DNA of 35,200 bases from Sulfobacillus benefaciens (lineage in GTDB: Bacteria > Bacillota > Sulfobacillia > Sulfobacillales > Sulfobacillaceae), in NCBI GenBank assembly GCA_003023725.1, contig PXYT01000039.1, positions 1 through 35,200 of the forward strand, read 5' to 3'. Shown piece by piece: positions 3,545 to 34,247 of the stretch. Numbering within the stretch: position 1 is the stretch's first letter; each line of letters opens with the position of its first letter. The notes beneath the pieces were generated by a model. That model saw only the letters and a list, made by a program, of their open reading frames with translations, made no database searches and was not told where the DNA came from. The position numbers were made by a program, and so were the translations under genes.

Positions 3545-4290
3545 AAGAAAAACCGAGGCGGACGCTGCACGTATCCGGCGAAGTGGATGAAGGATACGGC
3601 TTTACCGAGAGACGCTCCGTATTTGTGGCCGGTCGTTGGCAAGACACTTTACACAAAAAGCACGCATTTATTCCGCTTGTGAACGCCGCTCGCACGAGGA
3701 GTTATTTCCTCTCGCTTCGATGACGGGCCGAACCTGTGCCCACGGTCGTGGCTGGCCCGCAAAATCTCCATTTCATCGCTCGAACTCTTGATTTCCATGA
3801 TTGCGTCGCATAATCACAGTGTGGGTAATACTGTCAGTAAAGTTCGCGAATTGCGACGCAAAGATTAGTCCAGATGACCGCTTTGACGCCACCTACTCAT
3901 TGCTTGTGTGACGTTAAAATTCTCCATGTCTTCTCCGGTTATAAATAGAGCAGCGCCGAACATCACGAATCGTTCGTGCTCTGTGTGGAACAACTGTAAA
4001 ACCCTGGGCACTTTATGACGGCCATGATGATATATTCGCAAGGTGGTATCCAGTTATTGTTCCTGTAACGTTTGAGGCAATAGCTTGGGAAATACCAGGG
4101 CGGCCCTCACAACTGCATGCTTGATGGAGAAAAGCTCTAAGGTACCTTTCGCTAACACTTCAGGTGTCGATGAAATGCCGCAAAGCGTTTATGCCCATAA
4201 AAAAAACTTCAGGTCTTCTGAACAAGCACACAAGGTCTTCCTTCTGTTATGCTCATCACAAATGAAATCGGCGACAGGGAGGAACATGTC
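3545..4290. other. Intergenic region upstream of the cytosine deaminase gene, with inverted repeats
   Basis: No gene seen. A 10-base perfect inverted repeat has arms TTGCGTCGCA (3801-3810) and TGCGACGCAA (3852-3861), 41 bases apart. A second dyad, CACGAA-TCG-TTCGTG (3964-3978), lies just after a TATAAA-like box near 3940-3946 and could be an operator. The start of the next gene is about 310 bases further on, so these sites would belong to a long leader or another transcript. Confidence 0.35.
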
Positions 4291-5580
4291 ATGGAGCGGT
4301 GGAATTATGTCATCAGAAACGCGAAACTTACCGGTGCTAGGAGTGTCGACATTGCCATAAAAGATGACCGCATTGCGGATATCGCTGACAACATCGCTGA
4401 AACGGGGATAGAAGAAATAGATGCCCATGGTCAGCTGGTTACCGTGCCATTGGTTGACGCGCATATTCACCTCGACGCAACCCTTACGGTGCCAGAACGC
4501 ACCACTAACCATTCTGGTACGCTATTGGAAGGCATTCAACGTTGGAGCGAGATAAAACCCGACCTTACGGTGGAGGATGTCAAGACGCGAGCCAGAGAGG
4601 CCATCCTTTGGGAAGTCGCACACGGCACATTGCAAATACGGAGCCACGTGGACATCTGCGACGAAAAACTCACAGCCCTCCATGCACTGCGTGAACTAAA
4701 AGACGAGATGGCCGAACTGGTCGATCTGCAACTGGTGGCGTTTCCCCAGGAAGGCGTGCTTTGCTATCCGCATGGACAAGAATTAATGGAAACGGCCCTC
4801 CATGAAGGGGCCGATATCGTGGGCGGCATTCCCCACTATGAATGGACACGCGAAGACGGTATTCGGGAACTGGAGTACGTTTTTGAACTGGCCCACCGAG
4901 AAGGACGGATGATTGATGTGCACTGCGACGAAACAGACGATCCCGAGTCTCGCTTTGTCGAAACCATGGCGCGGCTCACGAAGGTCTACGAATGGGAAGG
5001 ACGCGTAAGCGCCAGCCATACCACCGCTATGCACAGCTACAACCCGGCGTACGGGTTCAAATTGCGTCGCATTTTACGGCAATCTGACATGGCCATTATC
5101 GCCAATCCGTTGACGAATGTCGTACTGCAAGGCCGGTTCGATGACTTTCCCAAACGGCGCGGCATGGCTCCTATCAAGGAATTGGATGCTTATGGAATTC
5201 CAGTTGCCTTGGGATTTGACTGCATCATGGATCCCTGGTACCCGCTGGGAACCGGAAACCTTCTGCAAGCCGCGTGGATGGCGCTGCATCTGGGACATAT
5301 GACCGGAGCCCAGGAAATGGAACGGGTTTTCCGAATGGCCACCGTCAATGGACAAAGCGTCTTCTATCCGGGTCAGCCGAATGATCTTGTCGCCGGGCGC
5401 CCGGCAGACCTGGTGATTTGGGATGCTCCCTCGGCCATCGAGGCCCTGCGTCTTTTACCGGTTGCACAGACTGTCATGCGGCACGGGCACATTGTCGCTC
5501 AAGCTGAACCTTCTCGCCATCAAGTCTATTATCAAGGCCAGAATTTGACGGTGAATTTCAGGCCTCGTACTGCACGTTAG
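4291..5580 (+). CDS. codA: Cytosine deaminase family amidohydrolase (CodA-like)
   Basis: 429 residues, close to the 427 of E. coli CodA. The ATG at 4291 was chosen because AGGGAGG (4276-4282) lies 8 bases upstream. An earlier in-frame ATG at 4249 has no such site. Metal and catalytic residues keep a constant offset of 3 from the E. coli enzyme as I recall it: His58 and His60 (DAHIHLD), Gln153 (FPQEG), His211 and Glu214 (HCDE), His243 (SHTTAMH), Asp310 (GFDCIMDPWYPLG). The reaction expected is hydrolytic deamination of cytosine to uracil and ammonia in the cytoplasm (pyrimidine salvage). Two residues next to the metal Asp differ: E. coli His312 and Asp314 correspond to Phe309 and Cys311 here. 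Substrate preference may therefore differ (another aminopyrimidine or purine-like base). It is monocistronic, without a cytosine permease beside it. Confidence 0.85.
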   Translation: MERWNYVIRNAKLTGARSVDIAIKDDRIADIADNIAETGIEEIDAHGQLVTVPLVDAHIHLDATLTVPERTTNHSGTLLEGIQRWSEIKPDLTVEDVKTRAREAILWEVAHGTLQIRSHVDICDEKLTALHALRELKDEMAELVDLQLVAFPQEGVLCYPHGQELMETALHEGADIVGGIPHYEWTREDGIRELEYVFELAHREGRMIDVHCDETDDPESRFVETMARLTKVYEWEGRVSASHTTAMHSYNPAYGFKLRRILRQSDMAIIANPLTNVVLQGRFDDFPKRRGMAPIKELDAYGIPVALGFDCIMDPWYPLGTGNLLQAAWMALHLGHMTGAQEMERVFRMATVNGQSVFYPGQPNDLVAGRPADLVIWDAPSAIEALRLLPVAQTVMRHGHIVAQAEPSRHQVYYQGQNLTVNFRPRTAR

Positions 5581-9117: not shown

Positions 9118-9597
9118 TTAACCCGGTTCCGTTATATGAATCCACGGGGGGTTGTCAGGCGTGGCGCCAGCCTGGTAGGCCAGGAGAGCCTCTCCTTGCC
9201 CGAATAACTTTTCATCCATGTGTGTTGCAATCGCGGAGATGAAATAAGGGAGTTTATCTGGGCTTGTCAAATTGAGTTGTGAATCGGCATGCCATGCCAA
9301 ACCAAAAAATTCGGGATCGCCTACGGGATCGAGGTAATAGGGACGGTTTCTCAATTCGGGATCCCTGTCATCTTGAATATACAACCACCAGTGGGAACGA
9401 GTGCCTTGAATGGTCCATTGCCAGGCGGGACCACAGGGTTGATCAGGAATCGCGCGGATAATTCCGCGGGTTGATTGATGTATGAGAGCGTCATAGAGGC
9501 GTTCTAAAAACTCTTGTTCCTGGCGGTGCCATTCTTCGGCTGATTTCGCCAGGGTAGGAGGGTATAAAGATGGTTGACGCTTTCCTCGCATTCGCAT
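9118..9597 (-). CDS. Uncharacterised Trp-rich protein, paralogue C
   Basis: 159 residues, ATG 9597 preceded by AAGGGAGA 7 bases upstream. The middle, 'PELRNRPYYLDPVGDPEFFG', aligns with 'LPLRNRPYDPW' of gene B. 'PDKLPYFISAIATHMDEKL' aligns with 'LDELPTLIYAIAMNLD' of gene A. The N-terminal part ('EEWHRQEQEFLERLYDALI' ending 'IPDQPCG') resembles the C-terminal helix and 'GQPC/GDPC' ending of A and B, so the module order appears shifted, as in a permuted or tandem-module protein. This is a by-eye alignment. It has no signal peptide or membrane helix. Function unknown. Confidence 0.65.
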   Translation of the reverse strand: MRMRGKRQPSLYPPTLAKSAEEWHRQEQEFLERLYDALIHQSTRGIIRAIPDQPCGPAWQWTIQGTRSHWWLYIQDDRDPELRNRPYYLDPVGDPEFFGLAWHADSQLNLTSPDKLPYFISAIATHMDEKLFGQGEALLAYQAGATPDNPPWIHITEPG

Positions 9598-9915
9598 GGT
9601 TAATGTCTCCCTTAGAACGGCTCAGGTATCCCGTTGTCGTATTAATGTTTTCGATGACGAGCGACTGTTGCCACTTGAGTCTTTTGAATCGCCCTCAAGC
9701 TCACAAAAGATACGGAAGCGGCGAATGTCGATGTGACCTCCAAACATCGAAAGAATCCGAATCTGCTATCCACAAATTGGGTATCGGATCCATTTGAGAG
9801 ACTTCTGTTTCTGGCCCCCTTATTGCTCCATTCCATATTCTTACCCATTTCAACCATCATCCGCTGCGACGTCTCAAAATCATGGGATCGGGTAAAAGAG
9901 GGCATTCTGGATAGG
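9598..9915. other. Short gap, nothing recognised
   Basis: About 320 bases between the start of paralogue C and the stop of the rhodanese gene. No gene, hairpin with T-run or known motif is visible. The missing 5' part of the FIST gene is not here. Confidence 0.4.
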
Positions 9916-10221
9916 CTAAACTTCCACTGGACCTGGCCACGCCAACATCCCACCCGCGACATTCATCGCACGGTAGCCTTTTTCGATTAAAAACTCAACC
10001 GCCTCGGCGCTGCGTCGGCCGCTAAAACACACCAAAGCCAAAGGGCGCGCTGTCGGCAACTCCGGGTACCGCTGATACAACAGCGTCAAAGGCATCGAGA
10101 CGGCCCCTGGGATCTTGCCCATTTCTAGTTCTTCGGGTTCACGCACGTCGACGACCACCCAGTCGGAATCCGAATGCGACCAAATAGTCCAAAATTCGTC
10201 AGCCGCCAGTTCGACTTCCAT
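9916..10221 (-). CDS. Single-domain rhodanese-like sulfurtransferase
   Basis: 101 residues. The start at 10221 was chosen because GGAGGTGG lies just upstream on the minus strand; a further in-frame ATG at 10248 would put that site inside the gene. Rhodanese features in order are 'VVVDVREPEELEMGKIPGAV' (CH2A-like entry), 'SMPL', and the active-site loop with Cys65 in 'CFSGRRS', then 'AVEFLIEKGY' and 'NVAGGMLAW'. The family moves sulfane sulfur from donors to acceptors via a Cys persulfide in the cytoplasm. Length and six-residue active-site loop fit the stand-alone GlpE/PspE-like class. It is monocistronic; a weak TTGAAT-N17-TAGACA promoter-like pair lies upstream on the minus strand. Confidence 0.85.
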   Translation of the reverse strand: MEVELAADEFWTIWSHSDSDWVVVDVREPEELEMGKIPGAVSMPLTLLYQRYPELPTARPLALVCFSGRRSAEAVEFLIEKGYRAMNVAGGMLAWPGPVEV

Positions 10222-10772
10222 CGTTCCACCTCCGATATCATTATTCATTCATAACATACCGCATATACGCCTTAATGTCTATCATGGTAGTCATGTTTAT
10301 TCAAATATCTATCGAGTAACGCACAGAGTTCAAAATTCATGAAGTGGATTAGCGATACCAGAGGAGCCGTTAGATCCCCTGGTTGAACAGAAGCGCCTCA
10401 CGCACCCCCGCCCTTGGCTTTGATACCGGCAGAAAAAGGGAAAGTTCTATTGGCGTGGATTTGGCAACCAACATGAATCTGATAACTTCACGAGGTTTGG
10501 TTAACCGACAACCAGGGATGACTCGCCTCAGGGGCAGGGAACCGAGCTTAACCAGAGATCTTCTCCGGTTACAGGATTGGCTAAAACGACCACCAGATAA
10601 AATAGTCCTGAACCTGATTCACGGCTCTGACGCCGCTCGTCCACAACTTCCTTCATGTCCCGTGGAACCCAGTGCCCCGGTCAACCTACGTTACACCAGC
10701 ATCAAGACAACATAAGACGCAATCAGCACACTCAAGAAGCCCCCAAGAGAGATGGGCGTGTCATTGCGGCCA
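10222..10772. other. Gap without a convincing gene
   Basis: About 550 bases. One plus-strand frame (10383-10715, 110 codons) is open but has no good ribosome binding site and a low-complexity basic composition, and I do not recognise it. It may be a remnant or chance. Confidence 0.35.
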
Positions 10773-11612
10773 TCATGATGATTGTGTGATTTGTGGCAAC
10801 AGATAGTTTAGCATAAGGGTGGCCAAGCCATGTTCTCCGGAGGGGAGTGAGGTTTGTACGCGGCGAAACAACACGGTGCTCTCGGGATTCCGAATCAGAG
10901 GAGCGTAAGCAATTCCATTCACGGCGCGTCCACGGCCCTTATACTGATAGAAGCGAAGATTGGGTGCGGCGTGATACCCAGGAATGGTTGCCGCGTGGTC
11001 CGCATATCCCCACATGCCTTGATACCGCTGCCGAATCCAAGAAAAGTACGGATAAGCTTCACTCCACGCACACCCAACGCAGGCTCCGGCCGTTTCCAGG
11101 CTAATACCGATCCCGTGGTGAAGAGATGTTCCTGCAGGATGCAAGTTCACGGATTTAGAGCCGTCGGTTCCTTCGGCCGATGAACCTGTCCACCCCTTGG
11201 GTATCAAAAAGATATAGCCGTCTGTTCCCACCGCTTGGATTTGCGAAGCCCAGTTTCGTGGCACGCGGACTGTCACTTGGGAGGGATAACGAAAAGATAC
11301 GGGATTGGTCCCAAACAACGGAGTGATAGTCGATACGCTTAAGGTCACGGCTCGTGTCCGAGACCGGGGGAAGGGCGCTGTCGACGGGTTTCGTTTTGAC
11401 GACGAGGCTCGGTTTTTCTCCCGTGGCTTGGTGGAGTGCGGGGCTGGAGAGGTGTCTTCTTGGGTACTGCGAGAGGGTAAAACAGCACTGTGGTGTGTAG
11501 CCTGCTGGCTGCCCATTGCCTGTGAATGGATGTGGCGTTGAAATCCAACCAATGCCAGCCCGGAACCGATCATGAGGCCAGCAACAGTCCCCAGGAACGA
11601 GATTTTTTTCAC
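10773..11612 (-). CDS. Secreted or membrane-anchored uncharacterised protein, DUF4850-like
   Basis: 279 residues from GTG 11612, preceded on the minus strand by GGAGGTGG. An upstream in-frame ATG would place that site inside the gene. The N-terminus is a signal or anchor (VKKISFLGTVAGLMIGSGLALVGF). A Ser/Thr/Arg/Lys/Pro-rich linker follows, to about residue 85. Then comes a globular domain with 'VTVRVPRNWASQIQAVG', 'FLIPKGWTGSSAEGTDGS', a Cys pair 'GACVGCAWSEAYPYFSW' and a C-terminal beta-rich part. The 'PKGWTG...GADG' and 'ACVGCA...APYF' pattern reminds me of DUF4850 proteins of Bacilli; that assignment is from memory and unverified. The CxxC-like pair could form a disulfide outside the cell. 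No operon partner. Confidence 0.7.
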   Translation of the reverse strand: MKKISFLGTVAGLMIGSGLALVGFQRHIHSQAMGSQQATHHSAVLPSRSTQEDTSPAPHSTKPREKNRASSSKRNPSTAPFPRSRTRAVTLSVSTITPLFGTNPVSFRYPSQVTVRVPRNWASQIQAVGTDGYIFLIPKGWTGSSAEGTDGSKSVNLHPAGTSLHHGIGISLETAGACVGCAWSEAYPYFSWIRQRYQGMWGYADHAATIPGYHAAPNLRFYQYKGRGRAVNGIAYAPLIRNPESTVLFRRVQTSLPSGEHGLATLMLNYLLPQITQSS

Positions 11613-22755: not shown

Positions 22756-23053
22756 GGTCTGCTTTTAAGCTGTCCGCATACCTTTTCGTCCGGATTCCAT
22801 CCCCGAATGGTTAACCACTTCACGTCTGCTTTCATCCCTTTCATCCAAAAAAGCTGCACGGATATCTCCATAAACCCGAGAAAGAGGTAATATAAGCGGT
22901 AACAGCTAATTATGGTTTTTCCCTACCAGTTTATGCGAAGGCACACCATTATCTTCAAGCGCATAGATAAATGCCGCCGCATTCGGCATATTTTCGGGCC
23001 ATGACGAAAGAACGGCGTGCCACGCGCACCAAATCCGCCAGAAGGAGAGAACG

Positions 23054-24388
23054 ATGACTCTCGACAATATTTTCCAAAAAGTCAAACATGAACACATACG
23101 CTTTGTCCGGTTTTTATACTGCGACAATGGCGGAATCATCCGCGGAAAATCCGCTTATGCTCCCACGCTGACCGCCCGTATGACCGGCGGTATCGGACTG
23201 ACAGTGGCGATGCAGGCCATGAACAGTCTGGACCAGCTGCAACCGATGAAAGGCATGGGGCCTGTAGGGGAAGTGCGATTAGTCCCGGACGCCTCCACGT
23301 TTCGCATTTTACCGTATGCGCCGCACAGCGCAGCAGTACTAACGGATATGACCACTCTTGAAGGAAATCCGTGGGAGGCTTGTCCGCGCAGTTTTCTTGC
23401 CCGCATGGAGCTAAAGGCCCGCGCTTTGGGTATAACCGTTCTCGCCAGTATCGAAAACGAATTTAGTCTAATCCTGGATGACAAGCCGTGGGATGACACC
23501 TTGTGTTTTTCCTCGCAAGGCATGCTGGCTTCCCAGGAGTTTGTAGACGAACTGGCCGAAGATCTGGATCACCAGGGCATTGTGCTGGAGCAATACTATC
23601 CCGAGCTGGCGCCCGGCCAGCATGAAATCTCTGTCCGGCACCAGGACGCCATGCGAGCCGCCGATCAGCAAATTTACACCCGGGAAACCATTCGTGCGGT
23701 AGCGGCCAATCACGGTCTTCGAGTCTCATTCGCTCCCAAACCTTGGGTGGATCAGGCCGGAAACGGAGGCCATATACACTTCAGTCTGGTGGATGAAGCC
23801 GGAAACAATCTCATCTATGAGCCCCATGACCCATATCAGCTCAGCCCTCTTGGCTACGAGTTCATGGCTGGCATCCTCTTCCACCTGCCGGCCCTTCTGG
23901 CCCTCACGGCACCCACAGTGAATTCTTATCAGCGACTCGTCCCCAATACCTGGAGCGGAGGCTATTCCTGCTGGGGACCTGATAACCGGGAGGCTCCCTT
24001 GCGAATTGCCTCTCCTCTCAAATCCCGGGAGAGCCAAAGTGTCAATATTGAGCTAAAAGCGGCCGACTTGTCGGCAAACCCGTATTTAGCACTGGGAGGT
24101 CTGATAGCCGCAGGATTGGACGGAATCACGCAACACCGGGAAATCGGAAAACCTGCCTTGGTCAATCCCGATCAATTAACCGACCATGAACGTCAGATCA
24201 TGGGCATCGTCAGATTACCGCAGACTCTTAGCAGAGCCCTTGACTATCTGACCCAAAACCCGGTGTTGACTGACGCTCTGGGAGATTTGTTGCTGAATAG
24301 TTATGTTGCCGTCAAACGATCCGAGGTGGCATTTTACGACGATAAATCTCCTGACGACATTGCAGCATGGCACCGCTTTCGCTATTAA
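23054..24388 (+). CDS. Glutamine synthetase family protein (FluG C-terminal-like)
   Basis: 444 residues, ATG 23054 with GAAGGAGAG just upstream. Catalytic-site blocks of the type I glutamine synthetase fold are present: Glu134 and Glu136 (IENEF), Glu184 and Glu191 (PELAPGQHE), 'NGGHIHFS' (237-244), 'NSYQRLVPNTWSGGYSCWG', 'DNREAPLRI', and 'VNIELKAADLSANPYLALGG'. The N-terminal beta-grasp part is short. The family couples ATP hydrolysis to ligation of ammonia or an amine to a glutamate-type carboxylate. Sequence style ('ANPYLALGGLIAAGLDGI', absence of the GlnA adenylylation region) is nearer to the FluG/gamma-glutamyl-amine ligase branch than to housekeeping GlnA, but the substrate cannot be read from sequence. 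Its stop overlaps by 4 bases the stop of the convergent amidohydrolase gene. Confidence 0.85.
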   Translation: MTLDNIFQKVKHEHIRFVRFLYCDNGGIIRGKSAYAPTLTARMTGGIGLTVAMQAMNSLDQLQPMKGMGPVGEVRLVPDASTFRILPYAPHSAAVLTDMTTLEGNPWEACPRSFLARMELKARALGITVLASIENEFSLILDDKPWDDTLCFSSQGMLASQEFVDELAEDLDHQGIVLEQYYPELAPGQHEISVRHQDAMRAADQQIYTRETIRAVAANHGLRVSFAPKPWVDQAGNGGHIHFSLVDEAGNNLIYEPHDPYQLSPLGYEFMAGILFHLPALLALTAPTVNSYQRLVPNTWSGGYSCWGPDNREAPLRIASPLKSRESQSVNIELKAADLSANPYLALGGLIAAGLDGITQHREIGKPALVNPDQLTDHERQIMGIVRLPQTLSRALDYLTQNPVLTDALGDLLLNSYVAVKRSEVAFYDDKSPDDIAAWHRFRY

Positions 24389-25497
24389 ATTTGATACACT
24401 CTCCGGCAGTTCTGCCATGCCATCATTTCTACCCACTTCTCCACCACCTGAGGCAAGAGATGATGCTCCGTCACAAGGTATTCGCAATATTTTTTCAGAC
24501 TTTCCCGCCACAACTGAGCCGCCAGGGCAAAACTTTCGGGACGGCTATGGGCATCGGAGGCAAACAAGAACCGGCTGGCCGGAGCCAGCTCGAGAGCTTC
24601 GGCCACGATCCGGCGTGATCCACTCGCGGCCAGAGGTAAAGCCAGAGACACGTCAAAATACACGGCGGGGTAAACCGACGCCAAATAACCTGCTTCCCGG
24701 TGATAGGGGTAGGTATGAAGAAGGAGAACCTTAAGTCCATGGGGGGTGAAAGTCTCTAAAAAGTTCCGCAGCAGCAAGGGATTTCCCTGAGACAAATCCA
24801 TGTCGCGATCCCCGTATCCGGTATGAAATTGAATGGGAAGCGTTTCCTCGATGAGAATAGGAGCCAGTTCCCAAAGCAAGTAATTGAGCAAAGAAGCGTC
24901 AGTAAGCCGATTCTGTCCTCGTCTCTTCATGCACTCAAAGGCAGCCTGCGCGTCTTCATGCCTCACCTGCGCAATGTTTAGTCCGCTACGGTAGGCCACA
25001 ATCGACTTGACGCCGACATATCCCTCAGCGCGCAGAGCTTTCAGTGACCCCTTCAAAAAGTGAATCCAGTCCCCAACACTGTCAAATTGGCTAAAAACGG
25101 CCTCGGCTGCCCGTTCGATACGGAAAATCGGTGAGATCGACATGGTGAGAAGAGCTTCCATCTCCTTGAGCGTGCAGGCACCTGGCGGAACAAACCCCGT
25201 GTCCACCAGCAATTTGTTATAACCGGCTTGGTGTAAGAGACGGGAGGCATAATCCGAGAAATCCCTGTCCTTTAGGGCGTGTTGGACCATAGTGGCATCC
25301 ACTTCTGTTCCCAGCTCCCGGGCGGCGACAGCCAAGGCTCTCCAGTACACAACGGTTTCTTGGATGTCTGCCAGGGGATAGCTCTCCGGGGCTTCGCTTA
25401 AAGCATAGGCGAAGCTTTTCATATCATCCGCCCGCTTTCGTCCCACGATAAGGTGGCAATGATGGTCCCACAAGGGAACCGTATCCATCCAATTCAC
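24385..25497 (-). CDS. Amidohydrolase family protein (FluG N-terminal-like)
   Basis: 370 residues, GTG 25497 preceded on the minus strand by GAGGAGGAACGTT. The TIM-barrel metal-site motifs are visible: 'LWDHHCHL' (His13, His15), 'GVKSIVAYRSGL' (the position of the bridging Lys), 'IQFHTGYGDRDMDLSQGNP', 'KVLLLHTYPYHREAGYLA', 'YFDVSLA' and the late Asp in 'FLFASDAHSRPE'. This is the amidohydrolase_2 class that forms the N-terminal half of fungal FluG and plant nodulin/GS fusions. Here it sits tail to tail with the glutamine-synthetase-like gene, so the two are a functional pair by family precedent. The reaction is unknown; hydrolysis of an amide made or used by the ligase is a guess. Confidence 0.85.
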   Translation of the reverse strand: MNWMDTVPLWDHHCHLIVGRKRADDMKSFAYALSEAPESYPLADIQETVVYWRALAVAARELGTEVDATMVQHALKDRDFSDYASRLLHQAGYNKLLVDTGFVPPGACTLKEMEALLTMSISPIFRIERAAEAVFSQFDSVGDWIHFLKGSLKALRAEGYVGVKSIVAYRSGLNIAQVRHEDAQAAFECMKRRGQNRLTDASLLNYLLWELAPILIEETLPIQFHTGYGDRDMDLSQGNPLLLRNFLETFTPHGLKVLLLHTYPYHREAGYLASVYPAVYFDVSLALPLAASGSRRIVAEALELAPASRFLFASDAHSRPESFALAAQLWRESLKKYCEYLVTEHHLLPQVVEKWVEMMAWQNCRRVYQI

Positions 25498-26126: not shown

Positions 26127-28541
26127 ATGAGGCGTTTGCTTATCATTGGTCACGGTATGGCAGCAACCCGCCTTGTTGAACGGATTGTGGAACTGGATCC
26201 GGAGACATATCACGTGAGTCTTGTTGGCGAAGAACCATATCCTGGGTACGATCGTATTCAGTTGTCGCAAATTCTTTCAGGCATTGCCAACCCAGAGGGT
26301 CTCGTGCTCAAAGACCGGCCATGGTATAAGATCCACAATATTGCCCTCAAAACGGGTGAGAAGGTCATAACGGTCAATCCCGGAGACAAGTCCGTACTTA
26401 CTGATTGCGGTTCGCATTTGAACTACGATGACCTGGTGTTTGCAACAGGCTCTACCCCCCAGAGAATTCCGGTTCCGGGCGCCGATTTGCCGGGTGTGGT
26501 CACTTTCCGGACGCTCGACGACTGCAAACGCATATTGCATCTCGGAAGATCCGACACCAAAGCCGTCGTGATCGGGGGCGGACTGCTGGGCCTCGAAGCG
26601 GCGCATGGATTACGGGCTCTAGGTATGCAGGTGACGGTCGTGCATGGGGTCAAGACTCTCATGGAACGTCAACTTGATTCCCCGGCAGCCAAGCTGTTGG
26701 AAAAGACATTGATCCAGCGGGGCTTGCAACTGGAAATGAACCGCCTGACTACCCGCATACTCGGCCACGACCGGGTTGAAGCCGTTGAGTTCTCAGACGG
26801 CCGCAGGATCCCCGCTGACCTCGTAGTCATGACGGTAGGCATCCGTCCCAATGTCACACTGGCAAAATCTCTAGGCTTGAACGTTAATCGAGGCATTGTT
26901 GTGGACGATTTCATGAGGACGTCTCACCCTCATATTTGGGCAGTGGGGGAGTGCGCCGAGCATAACGGCACCTTATATGGCATTGTCGCTCCGCTCTACG
27001 AACAAGTGGAAGTCCTAGCCAAGCGGCTCTTGAATATCTCCTCAGAGCCTTACACGGGTTCCGTTCCTGTGACGAAGTTAAAAGTCTCGGGAGTGGACGT
27101 GTTTTCGGCCGGAACGTTTTATGATGAGGAGGAGGATGAGACCTCAGATACGCTGGCCGTGCTCGACAGCCTAAAAAACCATTACCGAAAGGCTGTCTTT
27201 CGCAACAGGCAGCTGGTGGGAGCCGTTCTCTACGGAGATACGGCTCTGAGTGCCCGGTACTCCGCTCTCATTCGCCGGCAGACCTCGGTCGAGGAATTCG
27301 TGGAATCCGGCCTCTGGGATAATCATACCGCCTCTCAAAATGCGCTCTCTATTGAATCCTGGAAGGCGGAAGATGTCGTCTGCGGGTGCATGGGGGTTAG
27401 CAAAGGCACCATTGTCGATGCAATCCGCGAGAAGGATTTGGATACGGTGGACCAGGTACGTCTTCATACCGGCGCATCGCGGTCGTGCGGCAGTTGTCGG
27501 CCCTTATTGGCTCAGTTGCTCACACTGACCACTGGACTTGAAACCGTGGATAAGACGGGTGGTCTCTGTGCCTGTACAGATATGGGGCACGAACAGGTGA
27601 TTCAGGCCATTCGAACCCGTAAATTGTCCAGTATTTCGGAAGTCATGAGGGAACTGGGCTGGAACACCGCCGAAGGATGCCCCAAATGTCGGCCCGCCGT
27701 GAACTATTATCTTCGGGTTTTTCGTCCGCAAGAAGCAGCGGATGATCCCGCCTCCCGTCTTGTGAACGAACGCCTGCACGCCAACATTCAAAAGAACAAT
27801 ACGTTTTCCGTAGTTCCTCGCATATACGGCGGGGTCACCAATTCGTCCCAGTTACGCCGGATCGCCGACATTGCGGATAAGTACCACGTTCCCATGATCA
27901 AAATCACAGGGGGCCAACGCATCGACTTGTTGGGGATTCGCAAGGAGGACTTGCCGTCCGTCTGGGAAGATCTGGGCATGACCTCGGGCTATGCCTATGG
28001 AAAAGCCATGCGCACAGTGAAAACATGCGTCGGTACGGATTTCTGCCGGTTTGGCACCCAGGATGCCATCGGTACCGGTATTCGTTTGGAACACCGCCTG
28101 CAAGGACTGGACACCCCTCATAAAGTGAAAATGGGTGTGTCCGGATGCCCTCGCAATTGTGCTGAATCGACCGTCAAGGACGTCGGAGTGATCGGCGTTG
28201 ACGGAAGTTTTGACATGTATGTCGGGGGCAACGGAGGAACAAAAGTCCGCGCTGCCGATCTGCTGATTCGAGTCGCAACCCAAGACGAACTGGAAGAATG
28301 GACCCTGGCCTTCCTGCAATATTACCGTGAAAATGCCCACTACCTGGAGCGCACGGCCGCGTGGATAGAGCGAGTGGGCATCGAGAGTATAAAGAGCGCC
28401 CTGACCGACGAATCGGTTCGCAAAACTTACGCCGGAAAACTCCGAGAAAGCCTATCCACATGGCGGGATCCGTGGCAGGCCATCGTGGATTCAGAGAACG
28501 AACGGAGCCAGTTTGCAACCTTATCTCTCGAACCATCTTAA
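26127..28541 (+). CDS. nirB: Nitrite reductase [NAD(P)H], large subunit
   Basis: 804 residues, the usual length in Bacilli. ATG 26127 preceded by GGAGGTC. Domains in order: FAD/NAD(P)-binding oxidoreductase (1-330; 'LIIGHGMAATRLVERI', 'VVIGGGLLGLEAAHGL', 'HIWAVGECAEH'). Then two BFD-like [2Fe-2S] domains with Cys419, 421, 454, 457 and Cys481, 483, 518, 521. Then a ferredoxin-like half-repeat (about 535-615) and the siroheme/[4Fe-4S] domain with Cys634, Cys640, Cys674 and Cys678 ('TCVGTDFCRFG', 'SGCPRNCAES'). It reduces nitrite to ammonium with NAD(P)H in the cytoplasm, with six electrons passing FAD, FeS and siroheme. nirD follows 146 bases on. The siroheme dehydrogenase gene is in the convergent operon. 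Confidence 0.97.
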   Translation: MRRLLIIGHGMAATRLVERIVELDPETYHVSLVGEEPYPGYDRIQLSQILSGIANPEGLVLKDRPWYKIHNIALKTGEKVITVNPGDKSVLTDCGSHLNYDDLVFATGSTPQRIPVPGADLPGVVTFRTLDDCKRILHLGRSDTKAVVIGGGLLGLEAAHGLRALGMQVTVVHGVKTLMERQLDSPAAKLLEKTLIQRGLQLEMNRLTTRILGHDRVEAVEFSDGRRIPADLVVMTVGIRPNVTLAKSLGLNVNRGIVVDDFMRTSHPHIWAVGECAEHNGTLYGIVAPLYEQVEVLAKRLLNISSEPYTGSVPVTKLKVSGVDVFSAGTFYDEEEDETSDTLAVLDSLKNHYRKAVFRNRQLVGAVLYGDTALSARYSALIRRQTSVEEFVESGLWDNHTASQNALSIESWKAEDVVCGCMGVSKGTIVDAIREKDLDTVDQVRLHTGASRSCGSCRPLLAQLLTLTTGLETVDKTGGLCACTDMGHEQVIQAIRTRKLSSISEVMRELGWNTAEGCPKCRPAVNYYLRVFRPQEAADDPASRLVNERLHANIQKNNTFSVVPRIYGGVTNSSQLRRIADIADKYHVPMIKITGGQRIDLLGIRKEDLPSVWEDLGMTSGYAYGKAMRTVKTCVGTDFCRFGTQDAIGTGIRLEHRLQGLDTPHKVKMGVSGCPRNCAESTVKDVGVIGVDGSFDMYVGGNGGTKVRAADLLIRVATQDELEEWTLAFLQYYRENAHYLERTAAWIERVGIESIKSALTDESVRKTYAGKLRESLSTWRDPWQAIVDSENERSQFATLSLEPS

Positions 28542-28687
28542 ACCACCATGCGACGTGGAGGGGGTGCCGGATAAGCCCACGGCGCCACCTTGAATTTTAG
28601 CCAAGCAGGGTTTCCACGGAGGGCTCAACCAGCGTATCCAGAAAATATTCTTTGGCCCAGAAGGCACAGACCAAGGAGTGAATGGTG

Positions 28688-29065
28688 ATGACATGGTTTA
28701 AACTCATGAAACTGCATGACTTGGAGCCAAAAAGGGGACGAAAGGTGACCATCGCCCAATGCGAAATCGGCATCTTTCGCCTCTATGACGGCAGCCTTCG
28801 GGCTATAGGCAACACGTGTCCTCATCGCCAAGGGTCTTTGACCGATGGCATCGTCAGCGGCCATTACGTGTACTGCCCCCTTCATGACTGGAAAATTGAT
28901 TTGAATACGGGACTGGCAGAGGCTCCCGACGAAGGAGCAACCGAAATGTTCGCCGTCAGGGTGGATAGCAGCAATAACGTGTATGTGGCCATGGATGATG
29001 ACATGGCGCGTGCCATGTGTCTCAATCCTTCTCAGTCCGAAGAAAGTCTGTCCACGAAGAACTGA
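28688..29065 (+). CDS. nirD: Nitrite reductase [NAD(P)H], small Rieske subunit
   Basis: 125 residues from ATG 28688. AAGGAGTG (28673-28680) gives good spacing to 28688 or GTG 28685, and poor spacing to ATG 28682. The Rieske [2Fe-2S] ligands are Cys44 and His46 ('TCPHRQG') and Cys63 and His66 ('YCPLHDWK'), with the following 'IDLNTG' turn. NirD-type proteins pass electrons within the NirBD complex. The C-terminal 20 residues (ARAMCLNPSQSEESLSTKN) extend beyond the domain and are encoded over the 3' end of the convergent TrpD2-like gene (34-base overlap, 29032-29065). Confidence 0.93.
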   Translation: MTWFKLMKLHDLEPKRGRKVTIAQCEIGIFRLYDGSLRAIGNTCPHRQGSLTDGIVSGHYVYCPLHDWKIDLNTGLAEAPDEGATEMFAVRVDSSNNVYVAMDDDMARAMCLNPSQSEESLSTKN

Positions 29066-30105
29066 CTGTTCTCTCGCCATTTCTGGAGAAGCGAAGCCAC
29101 AAGTCCCCCGTCCACGGCTTCCTGCGCGGCTTCCACTCCTTCCGTCCAGCTGGGTGTATGGCCCATAAGCCACAGCCCAACTCCAGCATTTAAAAGAACG
29201 AGATCACGCAAAGGATGGGGTTCTCCGGCTAATATCGTCTGAGTAGCCTGGGCCTGTTCCTCGGTTGTCATGCTGAGTCGGTTCACGACGGGATTTAAAC
29301 GGGCAGCCCGAGGATCAATCTCAAACTCTTGTGCGGTTTCGCTCCGGGGATTAATCTTCCACACCACACTGGGGCGATGGACAAAAAGATCTCCGGATCC
29401 CTCTACTCCGACCACCAGCAGAATCTCCCGGTAGTGGGTGAGATGCGATAAGAAATCCTTAAGCACGTGATGGCGGCTTTGATGAAACATGCCCGTGATC
29501 ACTCTGGCATTTCCGGCCGGATTGAGCGTTTTCTCCACTGTGTTGAAAAGAGTACGCATGGACAACTCTTCACGAAGAACGCGAAGACGTCCAAGCGGGG
29601 GACAGATTGCTTCCGTATTCACAAAGGCCGAACCACAGTGTTGATATACCGTTTTAGAATCAGCCTCGCCTGTGAAGAGAGGTAGGTTCAGGGCCTGCAA
29701 GACATCATAAAGTCCAGTGCCCCGCTTCGGAGGCAAGGACTTCAATACCCCGTGGAACAACACGGGAATGCCCAGCGATCTAAGAATGAAACCGGCGGGA
29801 ATGGCGCTGAGAAAACTTTTCCGTCTGCCGTCAAAAGGATCCACGATGTCGAGACCGTCCTCAGAGAGCCATTGCCCCCCTGTGTCCTCACACCGTGAGC
29901 GCAAGGCAGAAGAAAATGCCAATAATTCCTCGGCGGATTCGGTTTTAATGCGCTCGGCAGTCAAAAAAGCGCCAATTTGGGCCGAGGACGCTGTGTGATC
30001 CAAAATGGCGTCTGCCGCTTCCCGGGCTTCAGTGAATGTCAAATGACGCGCCCCCCTGGCTCCCCGGGCGACCTCCTTCAATAGATCCGCAAACGGTGAG
30101 CGCAT
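29032..30105 (-). CDS. TrpD2-like anthranilate phosphoribosyltransferase homologue
   Basis: 357 residues. ATG 30105 follows AAGGAGGGAGTGGAA; an upstream in-frame ATG would swallow that site. The N-terminal helical domain has 'LTFTEAREAADAILD' and 'QIGAFLTAERIKTESAEELL'. The phosphoribosyl-site loop, GTGGD in TrpD, reads 'DIVDPFDGRRKSF', as in the TrpD2/YbiB subfamily. 'GIPVLFHGV', 'NPAGNARVITGMFH' and 'LVVGVEGSGDLFVHRPSVVW' follow. TrpD proper is about 340 residues and makes phosphoribosyl-anthranilate. TrpD2 proteins lack that activity and E. coli YbiB binds nucleic acids. Homologues are known near nitrate assimilation genes in cyanobacteria and Firmicutes. Last gene of the nitrate operon; role there unknown. 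Confidence 0.85.
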   Translation of the reverse strand: MRSPFADLLKEVARGARGARHLTFTEAREAADAILDHTASSAQIGAFLTAERIKTESAEELLAFSSALRSRCEDTGGQWLSEDGLDIVDPFDGRRKSFLSAIPAGFILRSLGIPVLFHGVLKSLPPKRGTGLYDVLQALNLPLFTGEADSKTVYQHCGSAFVNTEAICPPLGRLRVLREELSMRTLFNTVEKTLNPAGNARVITGMFHQSRHHVLKDFLSHLTHYREILLVVGVEGSGDLFVHRPSVVWKINPRSETAQEFEIDPRAARLNPVVNRLSMTTEEQAQATQTILAGEPHPLRDLVLLNAGVGLWLMGHTPSWTEGVEAAQEAVDGGLVASLLQKWRENSQFFVDRLSSD

Positions 30106-30197
30106 TTCCACTCCCTCCTTCATATTTCGGGATACCCACAAAGAACTTCCTCAAAATCCAGTCATCATGATGGCCATAACTATTCCCTCACTCAAGG

Positions 30198-31448
30198 TCA
30201 GCAGTCCAATTCGGCAGGGAAACGTTGGGGGTTTTGCGAGCGAGGGGGAGAGGACAATCTGATGTACCGGATGACCCCAAGCCCCACCAGCGCGAGACCC
30301 AGGAAGACGAAAAATCCGGTGGAGCCGTGACGAGATCCTCCCATCACCGCCATAACCGGGGGAATCAAGAATCCGCCCAAGGCCCCCAACCCGCCGATAA
30401 TCCCAGACGCCCCGCCCACGGCATTCGGGATGACAAACGGGACCATTTTGAACACCGCCCCATTTTGAATTCCCATGCCTACTCCCATCAGCCAAGTTCC
30501 ACCTAAAGCCCATGACAGAGAGGATGCGTCCGAAATGACTCCAGCAGCCAGAGCCATGACCGCTAACGCCCCCACAATGACGGCGCGGGGACTGATTTGG
30601 TCCGCCAGCCATCCCCCGAGAATGCGGATAAGGGAGGTAATCACGGTAAAAATCAAAGTGAAGAGCCCCGCTGACACTAAGGCTACGTGGTAGTTTGCGG
30701 AGAAAAACTCCGGTAACCAGGCCACCAGCGCCAAGAAACCGCCAAAGCTAACAAAATACAAAAAGGTGAGAGGCCATGTGGCCGGAGTGAGAAAGGCGGA
30801 GGACAACGGTCGGGAAGACGCCATTGGGCCAAGCAGAGAAATGCGCGGTGATTTCACTGTATAAAGTATCGTCACGACAGCCAGACACACAGCCCACAGC
30901 GCGTAAGATCCCATCACCCCCTCGCGCGCAAATGCATATGGCAAAAGCACAGCAAAGAGACCGGGTGCCAGATTGCCGAGACCGGCATAGGATGCCAGCC
31001 ATACGCCCTGGCTGCCGTCCGTCACAGCATAAGACACCTGGGCAATGCCCACGGGGAATGTGGCTATGCCAGCCCCAACCAGGGCACCCAGCAACAGTAA
31101 CACCCCAAACAACCGGTCCATGTGCATGGGATAATAGATTCTCATCAGCCATATGACGCCAACTATTCCCAAAAAGGCGGACACCAAAAGAATCTGGAAG
31201 GGACGTTTAAACCCGACGCGATCAGTCCAAGCTCCAAACGGGATTCGCAGCAACGCCCCCGACAGGTTGGGGACCGCTGCTAAAATACCCGCCTTGAGTG
31301 GCGATAGGTGCATGAGCTGGACAAACTTTGGCACCAGGGGACCATAAATGGACAGTCCAGCAAAACCCATAAAAAAGGCCATGGTGGGCCACAACACCTG
31401 ATTCCAAGGGCGGATTTTCGCGTTCAATGAAGGGTTCTTCTCTGCCAT
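30198..31448 (-). CDS. NarK/NasA-type nitrate/nitrite transporter (MFS)
   Basis: 416 residues, about 12 membrane helices. ATG 31448 preceded by GAGGGA; the upstream open frame overlaps the dehydrogenase gene and is not used. Family marks: 'FMGFAGLSIYGPLVPKFV' in helix 1, 'PFGAWTDRVGFKRPFQ' (the MFS A-motif between helices 2 and 3), 'YAGLGNLAPGLFAVLLPY' and 'GIIGGLGALGGFLIPPVM'. The last two are Gly-rich helices 5 and 11 that form the nitrate signature of the NNP family. It would import nitrate across the cytoplasmic membrane for the reductase encoded upstream. It starts 13 bases after the siroheme dehydrogenase gene. Confidence 0.92.
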   Translation of the reverse strand: MAEKNPSLNAKIRPWNQVLWPTMAFFMGFAGLSIYGPLVPKFVQLMHLSPLKAGILAAVPNLSGALLRIPFGAWTDRVGFKRPFQILLVSAFLGIVGVIWLMRIYYPMHMDRLFGVLLLLGALVGAGIATFPVGIAQVSYAVTDGSQGVWLASYAGLGNLAPGLFAVLLPYAFAREGVMGSYALWAVCLAVVTILYTVKSPRISLLGPMASSRPLSSAFLTPATWPLTFLYFVSFGGFLALVAWLPEFFSANYHVALVSAGLFTLIFTVITSLIRILGGWLADQISPRAVIVGALAVMALAAGVISDASSLSWALGGTWLMGVGMGIQNGAVFKMVPFVIPNAVGGASGIIGGLGALGGFLIPPVMAVMGGSRHGSTGFFVFLGLALVGLGVIRYIRLSSPPRSQNPQRFPAELDC

Positions 31449-31461
31449 TTTGTCCCTCTTT

Positions 31462-32076
31462 CTAAGATCTTGCCTGTCTGCCCTCACCCTCAACAGCAAG
31501 TCTTTGGGTCGTCTCGTCATTCGACACAAAATTCGACTGGACCAATTCCCAGGCCCGCTCCTTGAGAGTAGGCGCCGGAGTGCCTTGTTTTCGAAGATCG
31601 GCAATCTCACAGACCAAGTTCGCCCACTTGCGGCCGAATTCTGACTGGAGACGTAAACATAGAGCCTTTGCCAAAGCCGGAGCCTGACCCGAAGTGGAAA
31701 CACTGATCACCAAACTATCCCGGCGAAAGTGGCTGGCACTGTAAAATTCGCATAATGCCGGCGTATCGACGACATTTATCAGATGATGATAAGCTTTGGC
31801 CCACTCCCAAGCTTTCCTCAACTCGTCCATATCATGGGTGGCAATATAGGTTATGCGACTGTCAACAAAATCCCCTTCTGTCACACATCTGGGCAGCCAG
31901 GTGATGAGAGCCTGTTTCGCCCATTCTCTGATAGCGGGAGATGCGTCCGGGCTCACCGCCGTAATATGAGCCCGGGCCTCCAGTAACACCTGAATTTTCC
32001 ATTCCGCCTCGGCTTCTCCCCCGACAACCACGACGGGAAACTGAGCCATATCCAACATTACTGGCAACATGGCCAT
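31462..32076 (-). CDS. Precorrin-2 dehydrogenase / sirohydrochlorin ferrochelatase-like protein
   Basis: 204 residues, the size of stand-alone SirC/YlnF/Met8-type proteins. ATG 32076 with AGGAGGACC upstream. An N-terminal NAD-binding Rossmann fold has 'FPVVVVGGEAEAEWKIQVLL', with Glu replacing the third Gly of the usual GGG. Then 'RITYIATHDMDELRKAWEWA', 'NVVDTPALCEFYSASHFRRD' and 'VISVSTSGQAPALAKALCLR', which correspond to the substrate cleft and the SAT-like segment of the family. It oxidises precorrin-2 to sirohydrochlorin with NAD+ and may insert iron, giving siroheme for NirB. Second gene of the operon, 20 bases after nitrate reductase. The uroporphyrinogen methyltransferase gene is not in the window. 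Confidence 0.88.
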   Translation of the reverse strand: MAMLPVMLDMAQFPVVVVGGEAEAEWKIQVLLEARAHITAVSPDASPAIREWAKQALITWLPRCVTEGDFVDSRITYIATHDMDELRKAWEWAKAYHHLINVVDTPALCEFYSASHFRRDSLVISVSTSGQAPALAKALCLRLQSEFGRKWANLVCEIADLRKQGTPAPTLKERAWELVQSNFVSNDETTQRLAVEGEGRQARS

Positions 32077-32096
32077 AGATGGTGGTCCTCCTTTGA

Positions 32097-34247
32097 CTAC
32101 GGGGCTATAATAGAACGCCGGGTATCCACTGTCCTGGAATTGTCGGTTTCTTCGTGGGCGGCGTCGTTCGGGGTTACGGGCGAAAGTGCGACCACCGTAT
32201 GTTTAAACTCCGGCATTCCTGAAAGGCCCAAAGGAGATGCCGGGATGAAGTGATTGACGGCAGAATCCAAGGCATTGTGCATACTCACGAATACCGTGTC
32301 CGGCCGAATGTCCCTGGTCACACGAGCCTTTAGGGTCAAGCGCCTGTCAGTCGCATTGGTAATGGTCAAAGGCTCACCGTCGCGAATCCCCAGTTGGCCG
32401 GCCGTATGATGATGGATGAACACCACATCCGCAGGCCGGTTTAAGCCGGGAATGTGACGCGTTTGGGCCCCGCTGTTATAATGGGTTGCCGTCCGTCCCG
32501 TTATGAGGTGAAAGGGGCACCCAGGTGTAGGGAGTTCTGTGGCGGGTCCCGGAAGCAAAATGCTGAAACGAGCCTTGCCGTCGGGCGTGGCGAAGCCATT
32601 TTCATAAAGACGGGGCGTTCCTTCCCGCCTATTCTCGGGAACAGGCCAATGAGGCATCGCTCCGGCCATAAGGGCGCTCCATGAGGTTCCGGAATAGTCC
32701 GAGGCCGAGTTTTTGGTGGCAAGAATCATTTCCTCAAAAATTTCCCTAGACGAGCGATACGGGAAATACCGGTCCGCTCCAAGCCTATTCGCCAATTCTT
32801 TGAGAACCTGCCAATCCTGATATCCAGGACTCGTCCGATCGGGTGACGAGAGCGGACGCACGGCCACAATCCGGGCTTCCACTGTCGTCACGGTTCCTTG
32901 ATTGATGCCAAACCCTCCCGTTGGCAATACAATATCGGCCGCCTCGGCGGTTTCAGTCAGAATGGGGTCCAATACCGCCAGAAATTCTAGGTTTTCGAGA
33001 GCACTTTGAACCGCTGGCGTGTCCGGCGCAGACAGTAAGGGATTAGCTCCCACCACCATCAGTCCTTTGATCTGACCCCGGTTAATAGCCGAAAAGAATT
33101 CTCCCGCCGTAAAACGTCCGGGACCCGGGATTCGAGCCGTTTCAATACCCCAAACACGGGCGATATGCTCGCGATCTGTCGCGCTCGTAATCGACCGGGA
33201 ACCGGGCAGTTGGTCAGTTTTTTGACCCAGTTCACGCCCGCCCTGACCATTCGCCTGGCCGGTCAACATAATCGCACCGGTACCCGGTCTTCCGATCTGT
33301 CCTGTAGCCAACACAACATTTAAGAAGGCGGACACCGACTCAACGCCGTATCGATATTGTTCTATGCCGCGCCCATGTAAAACCATCGCCCGGGGCGAGC
33401 GGGCAAAAATCCGAGCAACACTTTCAATAATGTCCGGTGCAATGTCGGTTAATAAGGACACAACAGCCGGGGTATAGTGGCGCGCCTGGAAACGGACATC
33501 ATCAAATCCCTGAGTTTTCGCAGCGATGAAGGCCTCGTTTGTCAAATTTCCTTCAATTATGGTGTGAAGCAACGCCCACGCCAAAAACCCATCGGTTCCC
33601 GGCCGGATCGGCAAATGATACTGAGCGGCTTTGGCCAGAGGAGTGCGTCTGGGGTCGACGACGATTATGGTGGCACCCCGTCTTTTCGCTTGCTTTACGG
33701 CACGCATCGCCATGGGATGGGCTTCACTCAAATTACTGCCCACAAATAACAGAGTCTCAGCCTGCCGTACGTCTTCGAACGTGGCCGTAGGCCGATCCAA
33801 TCCGAACATTGTGACATATGCTTTGGCCGCTGAAGACATGCAAAACCGCCCATTATAGTCAATTTCCCGGGTTCCCAGGGCTAGGCGGGCGAACTTTCCC
33901 AAAAGGTACGCCGTTTCATTAGTGAGTGCACCACTGCCGTAAATGGCCATACTGTCAGCTCCCCATTTCCGCTGCACATCTCGGATACGGGCAGCCGTCA
34001 TGTCGAATGCCGTGGACCAGAGGACTGGAGTCAGAGGCTCGGAACGACCCTCTCGCGCCAAGGGATGAAACTGCCTCTGACGGTGATGAAGAATATCGAG
34101 GCTTGCCAACCCTTTTTGACAAAGGTGTCCTTCGTTGATAGGGTCGTTGGGATTGCCCACAATGCGCACGGCGGACGAATCGCCCTTAATCGCTACGCCG
34201 CACTGCAATGCGCAAAACGGGCAAGGAGTAAAGTCGCTTGGCATCAT
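32097..34247 (-). CDS. nasA: Assimilatory nitrate reductase, molybdopterin catalytic subunit
   Basis: 716 residues, ATG 34247 (or the adjacent ATG 34244) with GGGAGGGCCC upstream. An N-terminal [4Fe-4S] site has Cys9, Cys12, Cys16 and Cys43, then Lys45 for electron transfer. The molybdenum ligand is Cys136 in 'DYNGRFCMSSAA'. Mo-bisMGD-binding segments include 'LLFVGSNLSEAHPMAMRAV', 'VVDPRRTPLAKAAQYHLPI', 'VVLATGQIGRPGTGAIMLTG', 'GLMVVGANPL' and, in the C-terminal molydopterin-binding domain, 'LITGRTATHYNSGAQTRHIP' and 'VFVSMHNA'. No Tat signal, so cytoplasmic, as expected for the assimilatory type. No C-terminal BFD [2Fe-2S] domain is present (as in the ~710-residue NarB/NasC form), so electrons come from ferredoxin or a separate partner not seen here. 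First gene of the operon nasA-dehydrogenase-transporter-trpD2. Confidence 0.95.
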   Translation of the reverse strand: MMPSDFTPCPFCALQCGVAIKGDSSAVRIVGNPNDPINEGHLCQKGLASLDILHHRQRQFHPLAREGRSEPLTPVLWSTAFDMTAARIRDVQRKWGADSMAIYGSGALTNETAYLLGKFARLALGTREIDYNGRFCMSSAAKAYVTMFGLDRPTATFEDVRQAETLLFVGSNLSEAHPMAMRAVKQAKRRGATIIVVDPRRTPLAKAAQYHLPIRPGTDGFLAWALLHTIIEGNLTNEAFIAAKTQGFDDVRFQARHYTPAVVSLLTDIAPDIIESVARIFARSPRAMVLHGRGIEQYRYGVESVSAFLNVVLATGQIGRPGTGAIMLTGQANGQGGRELGQKTDQLPGSRSITSATDREHIARVWGIETARIPGPGRFTAGEFFSAINRGQIKGLMVVGANPLLSAPDTPAVQSALENLEFLAVLDPILTETAEAADIVLPTGGFGINQGTVTTVEARIVAVRPLSSPDRTSPGYQDWQVLKELANRLGADRYFPYRSSREIFEEMILATKNSASDYSGTSWSALMAGAMPHWPVPENRREGTPRLYENGFATPDGKARFSILLPGPATELPTPGCPFHLITGRTATHYNSGAQTRHIPGLNRPADVVFIHHHTAGQLGIRDGEPLTITNATDRRLTLKARVTRDIRPDTVFVSMHNALDSAVNHFIPASPLGLSGMPEFKHTVVALSPVTPNDAAHEETDNSRTVDTRRSIIAP

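Follow-up and report, generated by a model that had tools for sequence, protein, structure and literature searches.

At one locus of Sulfobacillus benefaciens, a gene of the glutamine synthetase (GS) fold and an amidohydrolase gene run towards each other and overlap by four bases at their ends. An earlier note on this DNA likened the pair to the two domains that are joined in FluG of fungi and nodulin-GS (NodGS) of plants. In moulds sporulation is under the control of FluG, and in plants NodGS influences how roots develop. The locus raises the question of whether the two genes are genuine partners, what they would do together, and whether their tail-to-tail arrangement has a meaning of its own. 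We addressed this in the whole stretch of 35,200 nucleotides that carries them (contig PXYT01000039.1; hereafter, the window) and in related genomes. The pair of families, their operon and the FluG parallel are already in the literature (PMC6478659, PMC5403932), and the window pair is a further case of this known ligase/hydrolase pairing, in an orientation that is locally derived.

The two genes and the two halves of FluG

The putative ligase gene (P0001; 23054-24388 on the + strand, 444 amino acids, ATG start) is identified by its open reading frame, Pfam domains, active-site residues and position in a tree, and the amidohydrolase gene (P0002; 24385-25497 on the - strand, 370 amino acids, GTG start) by its open reading frame, Pfam domain, residues and structural model. 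As described in the earlier note, they lie on opposite strands with overlapping stops, the TTAA at 24385-24388 providing a TAA stop codon on each strand. Just 5' of either start codon is a purine-rich Shine-Dalgarno-like stretch, AAGGAGA at 23042-23048 (+ strand) for the ligase and GAGGAGGA at 25510-25503 (- strand) for the amidohydrolase. An identical convergent layout with the same 4-base TTAA overlap is found in a genome of the same genus (G360, locus L037), whose two encoded proteins are 73% and 64% identical to those of the window. Near the pair in that locus is a gene for TnpB, an IS200/IS605-type RNA-guided nuclease (L037:5570-6976).

P0001 matches the Pfam families Gln-synt_C (5.7e-91) and Gln-synt_N_2 (1.2e-28), and its best PDB match is PA5508, the gamma-glutamyl aromatic monoamine ligase of Pseudomonas aeruginosa (PDB identifier 4HPP). 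The overall identity of the two proteins is modest; all 11 of the 11 catalytic positions compared are identical, and E134, E136, E184, E191, H240, H242, R294, R312, R317 and E333 of P0001 correspond to the PA5508 catalytic set. The ATP, metal and glutamate-binding residues of gamma-glutamyl-amine ligases (PA5508, GlnA3 and PuuA) are likewise kept. At the position of the catalytic Glu of true glutamine synthetases P0001 has W300, and the DGSS motif of the ammonia site, looked for in P0001, is absent; it is on these two features that we take the protein as a gamma-glutamyl-amine ligase. The active-site comparison with GlnA and FluG that the earlier note had suggested shows a FluG-like Trp in P0001, unlike both of the genome's other GS genes, GlnA-type paralogues with Glu at that position and the DGSS motif. 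A Trp replacing the GS catalytic Glu, together with the loss of the ammonia-site Asp, is the pattern of the C-terminal half of FluG and NodGS.

Against the GlnA equivalog model TIGR00653 P0001 scores 242.7 bits (cut-off 429.15), and against NF045547, the NCBIfam equivalog for gamma-glutamylputrescine synthetases of PuuA type, 454.7 bits (cut-off 650). Since the latter score is below its cut-off, the amine need not be putrescine. The ligase tree groups P0001 with PA5508 and almost all of the ligases encoded next to an amidohydrolase in a clade of 42 rows (SH-aLRT 99), apart from GlnA; PuuA forms a distant long branch. Judged from residues and phylogeny, P0001 is very probably a gamma-glutamyl-amine ligase. 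The earlier note had named a position among housekeeping GlnA proteins as fatal to its proposal; the separate clade, the absent DGSS motif and W300 all speak against such a position.

P0002 matches the Pfam family Amidohydro_2 (3.1e-12), and a search of NCBIfam with it returned no matching model. Its single clear PDB sequence match is LSEI_0440 of Lactobacillus paracasei (casei) ATCC 334 (PDB identifier 2QPX), which is about 40% identical and was found with E-values of 4.5e-97 using a profile built from P0002 and three relatives and 2.5e-86 using the single sequence. The AlphaFold2 model of P0002 (mean pLDDT 92.7) could be superimposed on 2QPX with a Z of 51.8 and an RMSD of 1.6 over 363 residues, and the next structural match has a Z of 29 at 15% identity. 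A binuclear metal site is predicted at H13, H15, K164, H225, H261 and D315, the equivalent of K164 being carbamylated in 2QPX, and Y169 is the predicted substrate Tyr. These seven residues align with the published 2QPX/FluG list and reproduce the pattern of the N-terminal half of FluG and NodGS (HxH, K, H, H, D plus Tyr); all seven are kept in 91 of 92 aligned sequences. For FluG, residues were compared with published tables. Uronate isomerases, the Planctomyces amidohydrolase 4i6v and phosphotriesterases were also considered as guides to function; they have only the fold in common with P0002, at roughly 10-16% identity, and no reaction can be assigned to it from them.

In Aspergillus nidulans, LSEI_0440 replaced the N-terminal half of FluG and PA5508 its C-terminal half (PMC6478659). 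As the best PDB matches of P0002 and P0001 are these same bacterial proteins, the comparison with FluG is well founded, and the parallel drawn in the earlier note stands: each gene is homologous to one of the two FluG/NodGS domains, and each of the listed FluG metal and catalytic residues has an identical or equivalent counterpart in the two proteins. The likeness to A. nidulans FluG and plant NodGS/CsTSI covers both domains, the metal ligands of the hydrolase, and the Trp and catalytic residues of the ligase. The difference is one of architecture, FluG and NodGS being single fused polypeptides whereas the window has two separate, convergent ORFs on opposite strands.

Conservation of the pair

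The survey of related loci was seeded on the amidohydrolase alone, blind to its neighbours, and GS-like genes were then looked for nearby. It took in relatives from the phylum and class to which the window belongs, together with 80 named loci in GTDB genomes, making 92 non-redundant loci in all. A GS-like gene lies within 300 bp of the amidohydrolase in 65 of the 92 loci and inside the locus, beyond 300 bp, in a further 11; 16 loci, some of them short contigs, have no ligase gene visible in the sequence examined. In most adjacent pairs (49 of 65) the ligase is followed by the hydrolase on the same strand, in many cases with an overlap or a gap of a few bases; this is the reverse of the FluG/NodGS fusion order. 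Eleven pairs, those of actinomycetes, are divergent, three run from hydrolase to ligase, and two are convergent, namely the window and L037 from the same genus. No amidohydrolase-GS fusion ORF was seen in the roughly 92 surveyed loci or in 39 positive genomes of actinomycetes.

The window's 4.56-Mb genome has three GS genes, and we estimate that random placement would bring one of them this near to the amidohydrolase in well under 1% of cases. Given the same arrangement in G360 and the pairing in 65 of 92 loci, the adjacency is not due to chance; the earlier note's expectation of a conserved partnership is borne out across many phyla, in place of random neighbourhoods. Annotated plasmids of Deinococcus, Allomeiothermus and the haloarchaeon Haladaptatus carry the pair in ligase-to-hydrolase order. 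The two genes also co-occur at the level of genomes: within the window's family and order, ligases of the partner type (>700 bits) are found only in hydrolase-bearing genomes (G360, G352, G158 and the window's own), and G340, G324, G375, G383 and G367 have no hydrolase and only GS genes of lower score, the best reaching about 345-366 bits. By-products of the work are the locus survey itself and the observation that Lacticaseibacillus proteins closely related to LSEI_0440 are themselves encoded 3' of a ligase gene. In L. zeae and L. chiayiensis, the hydrolase (88% identity to 2QPX) follows the ligase gene at a distance of 76-79 bp and is co-directional with it, in contrast to the convergent window pair.

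Some loci depart from the usual composition. The ligase of L034 (G158, 9571-10917) contains one in-frame TGA, reflecting a pseudogene or a metagenome-assembly error, and an actinomycete contig (L181, G489) encodes the ligase-hydrolase pair twice in succession, in a span of about 8 kb. Several family-level relatives have, next to the pair, a further GS-like paralogue whose residue at the Trp300 position is Phe (L037:11795-13132, L038:8960-10414, L055:9312-10649, L061:5897-7291); in L061 it adjoins the hydrolase without the usual ligase. The window's genome lacks this Phe-type paralogue.

A candidate pathway through gamma-glutamyl amides

Across the surveyed loci, the recurrent neighbours are an amino-acid/polyamine-type permease family (37 loci), a PuuD-like Peptidase_C26 gene (13 loci, Lactobacillaceae included), SDR dehydrogenases (12), M20 peptidases (7), class III aminotransferases (6) and branched-chain-type ABC transport. 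In addition, a PuuC/betaine-aldehyde-dehydrogenase-like gene lies just 5' of the hydrolase in L038, and an SDR gene directly 3' of it in two Alicyclobacillus loci; in Allomeiothermus, the pair comes after a gene for an N-formylglutamate amidohydrolase. A Peptidase_C26 is also encoded in the window's genome, away from the pair. Lactobacillaceae loci L067-L075 have both an amino-acid permease gene and the PuuD-like Peptidase_C26 gene beside the pair, which suggests two different hydrolases serving one pathway.

In Streptomyces coelicolor, glnA3 (SCO6962) makes gamma-glutamylpolyamines, and SCO6961 of the amidohydrolase 2 family, encoded 3' of glnA3, is polyamine-induced and was proposed to be a deglutamylating hydrolase (PMC5403932, PMC9397018). 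The window pair shares with this operon the adjacency of a GS-like ligase gene and an Amidohydro_2 gene (PMC5403932), SCO6961 being likened by its published description; SCO6962-SCO6961 is co-directional, likely co-transcribed and induced by polyamines, whereas the window pair is convergent on opposite strands. A Streptomyces plasmid locus (L187) has the ligase-to-hydrolase pair as in SCO6962-SCO6961. A NodGS-type protein of tea (CsTSI) forms theanine (gamma-glutamylethylamide) from glutamate and ethylamine (PMC9909507). On the strength of the neighbour genes, the Streptomyces pair and theanine synthesis by the tea protein, we favour a pathway of amine assimilation through gamma-glutamyl amides.

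We hypothesize that the pair constitutes a two-gene bacterial FluG/NodGS module, in which a gamma-glutamyl-amine ligase acts with an amidohydrolase of the same pathway that probably hydrolyses the gamma-glutamyl amide; we put the probability of this reading at about 0.68. As to substrates and order of steps, we infer that P0001 would convert ATP, glutamate and a primary amine to a gamma-glutamyl amide, and would not be a glutamine synthetase. P0002, as a putative binuclear-zinc amidohydrolase, would then belong to the same small amine-assimilation or detoxification pathway and most likely regenerate glutamate by hydrolysing the gamma-glutamyl amide or an oxidised product of it. The E. coli Puu pathway (PuuA-PuuD) is similar in that an amine is glutamylated and the glutamate later removed, with permease and aldehyde dehydrogenase partners; E. 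coli PuuD, however, is a cysteine hydrolase of the class I amidotransferase fold, unrelated to the TIM-barrel metal hydrolase P0002.

The steps could also run with the amidohydrolase first, freeing the amine from an N-acyl or other amide, after which the ligase would glutamylate it and a PuuD-like or N-formylglutamate-amidohydrolase-like enzyme would remove the glutamate. The PuuD-like hydrolase found with the pair in 13 loci, among them those of Lactobacillaceae, and the N-formylglutamate amidohydrolase gene preceding it in Allomeiothermus are what such a scheme calls for, but in the sequence examined a second gamma-glutamyl hydrolase is not obvious at most loci, and the commonest operon order is ligase to hydrolase (49 of 65), although gene order does not fix reaction order; we regard it as possible, if rather unlikely. 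These same genes, together with the Peptidase_C26 of the window's genome, indicate that deglutamylation may not be the task of P0002. We would tentatively entertain, as less likely than not, that the FluG-type amidohydrolase is not a remover of glutamate and catalyses an undescribed metal-dependent step in the gamma-glutamyl-amine pathway of bacteria, haloarchaea, fungi and plants, in which case the bacterial pairs could reveal the chemistry of FluG's N-terminal half.

The earlier note's suggestion of a gamma-glutamyl signal that the pair would make and break down, after the biology of FluG, draws on the developmental roles of FluG and NodGS and on the proposal of theanine, from a plant NodGS-type protein, as a nitrogen signal (PMC9909507). 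We consider it improbable, as the permease, aldehyde dehydrogenase, SDR and aminotransferase neighbours and the polyamine induction in Streptomyces point to metabolism, and no regulator is consistently found beside the pair. For the favoured module of ligase and gamma-glutamyl-amide hydrolase, the survey supplies many natural partner pairs, and those with a permease, aldehyde dehydrogenase or PuuD-like gene narrow down the pathway. The bacterial pairs are simple to express and bear on the reactions of both FluG halves.

Beside the pair in the window is an assimilatory nitrate/nitrite set (26127-34247), with a NirB-like large subunit on the + strand and a TrpD2-like glycosyltransferase, a NarK-like MFS transporter, a siroheme synthase N-terminal-like protein and a NasC-like molybdopterin oxidoreductase on the - strand. 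A tie between the pair and these nirB, nasC-like and narK-like genes was considered and rejected, no neighbour family of this kind being conserved across the surveyed loci.

Origin of the convergent overlap

In the ligase tree, the window's ligase falls with those of L037 and L038 in one clade (100) that nests among lineages with the ligase-to-hydrolase order, and on this topology the convergent orientation is derived from co-directional operons. The genes of L038 are also convergent, but about 3 kb of DNA that includes an MFS transporter gene separates them. Most simply, one inversion in the common ancestor of the three would account for the layout: one gene of a ligase-to-hydrolase operon would have been turned around once to give the convergent 4-base overlap, each gene keeping its own Shine-Dalgarno-like site.

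The earlier note had seen in the overlap a possible means of mutual regulation, either transcript being antisense to that of the other gene. The overlap is indeed kept in G360, but the convergent layout occurs in just 2 of the 65 adjacent pairs, confined to the window's own small clade, the convergent genes of L038 are separated by about 3 kb, and a scan around the pair for promoters and terminators revealed no site between the genes above chance, as gauged by shuffles. Convergent 4-base overlaps are, moreover, common in bacteria, and we consider a regulatory role very unlikely. A reading of P0001 as an ordinary glutamine synthetase and of P0002 as its unrelated neighbour, which the Gln-synt_C match at 5.7e-91 might invite, is scarcely credible in view of the missing DGSS motif, the Trp in place of the catalytic Glu, the score of 242.7 against 429 bits for the GlnA equivalog, the tree placement, the conserved pairing and the two GlnA-type paralogues elsewhere in the genome.

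For the window itself the consequence is mainly one of correct annotation: the GS-like gene at 23054-24388 should not be annotated as glutamine synthetase, and the convergent layout at 24385-24388 should not be read as functional. Elsewhere in the window, an unrelated protein of the Amidohydro_3 family is encoded at 4249-5580, and an ORF at 1649-3544 contains repeats matching the YCF48 (PSII_BNR) beta-propeller family.
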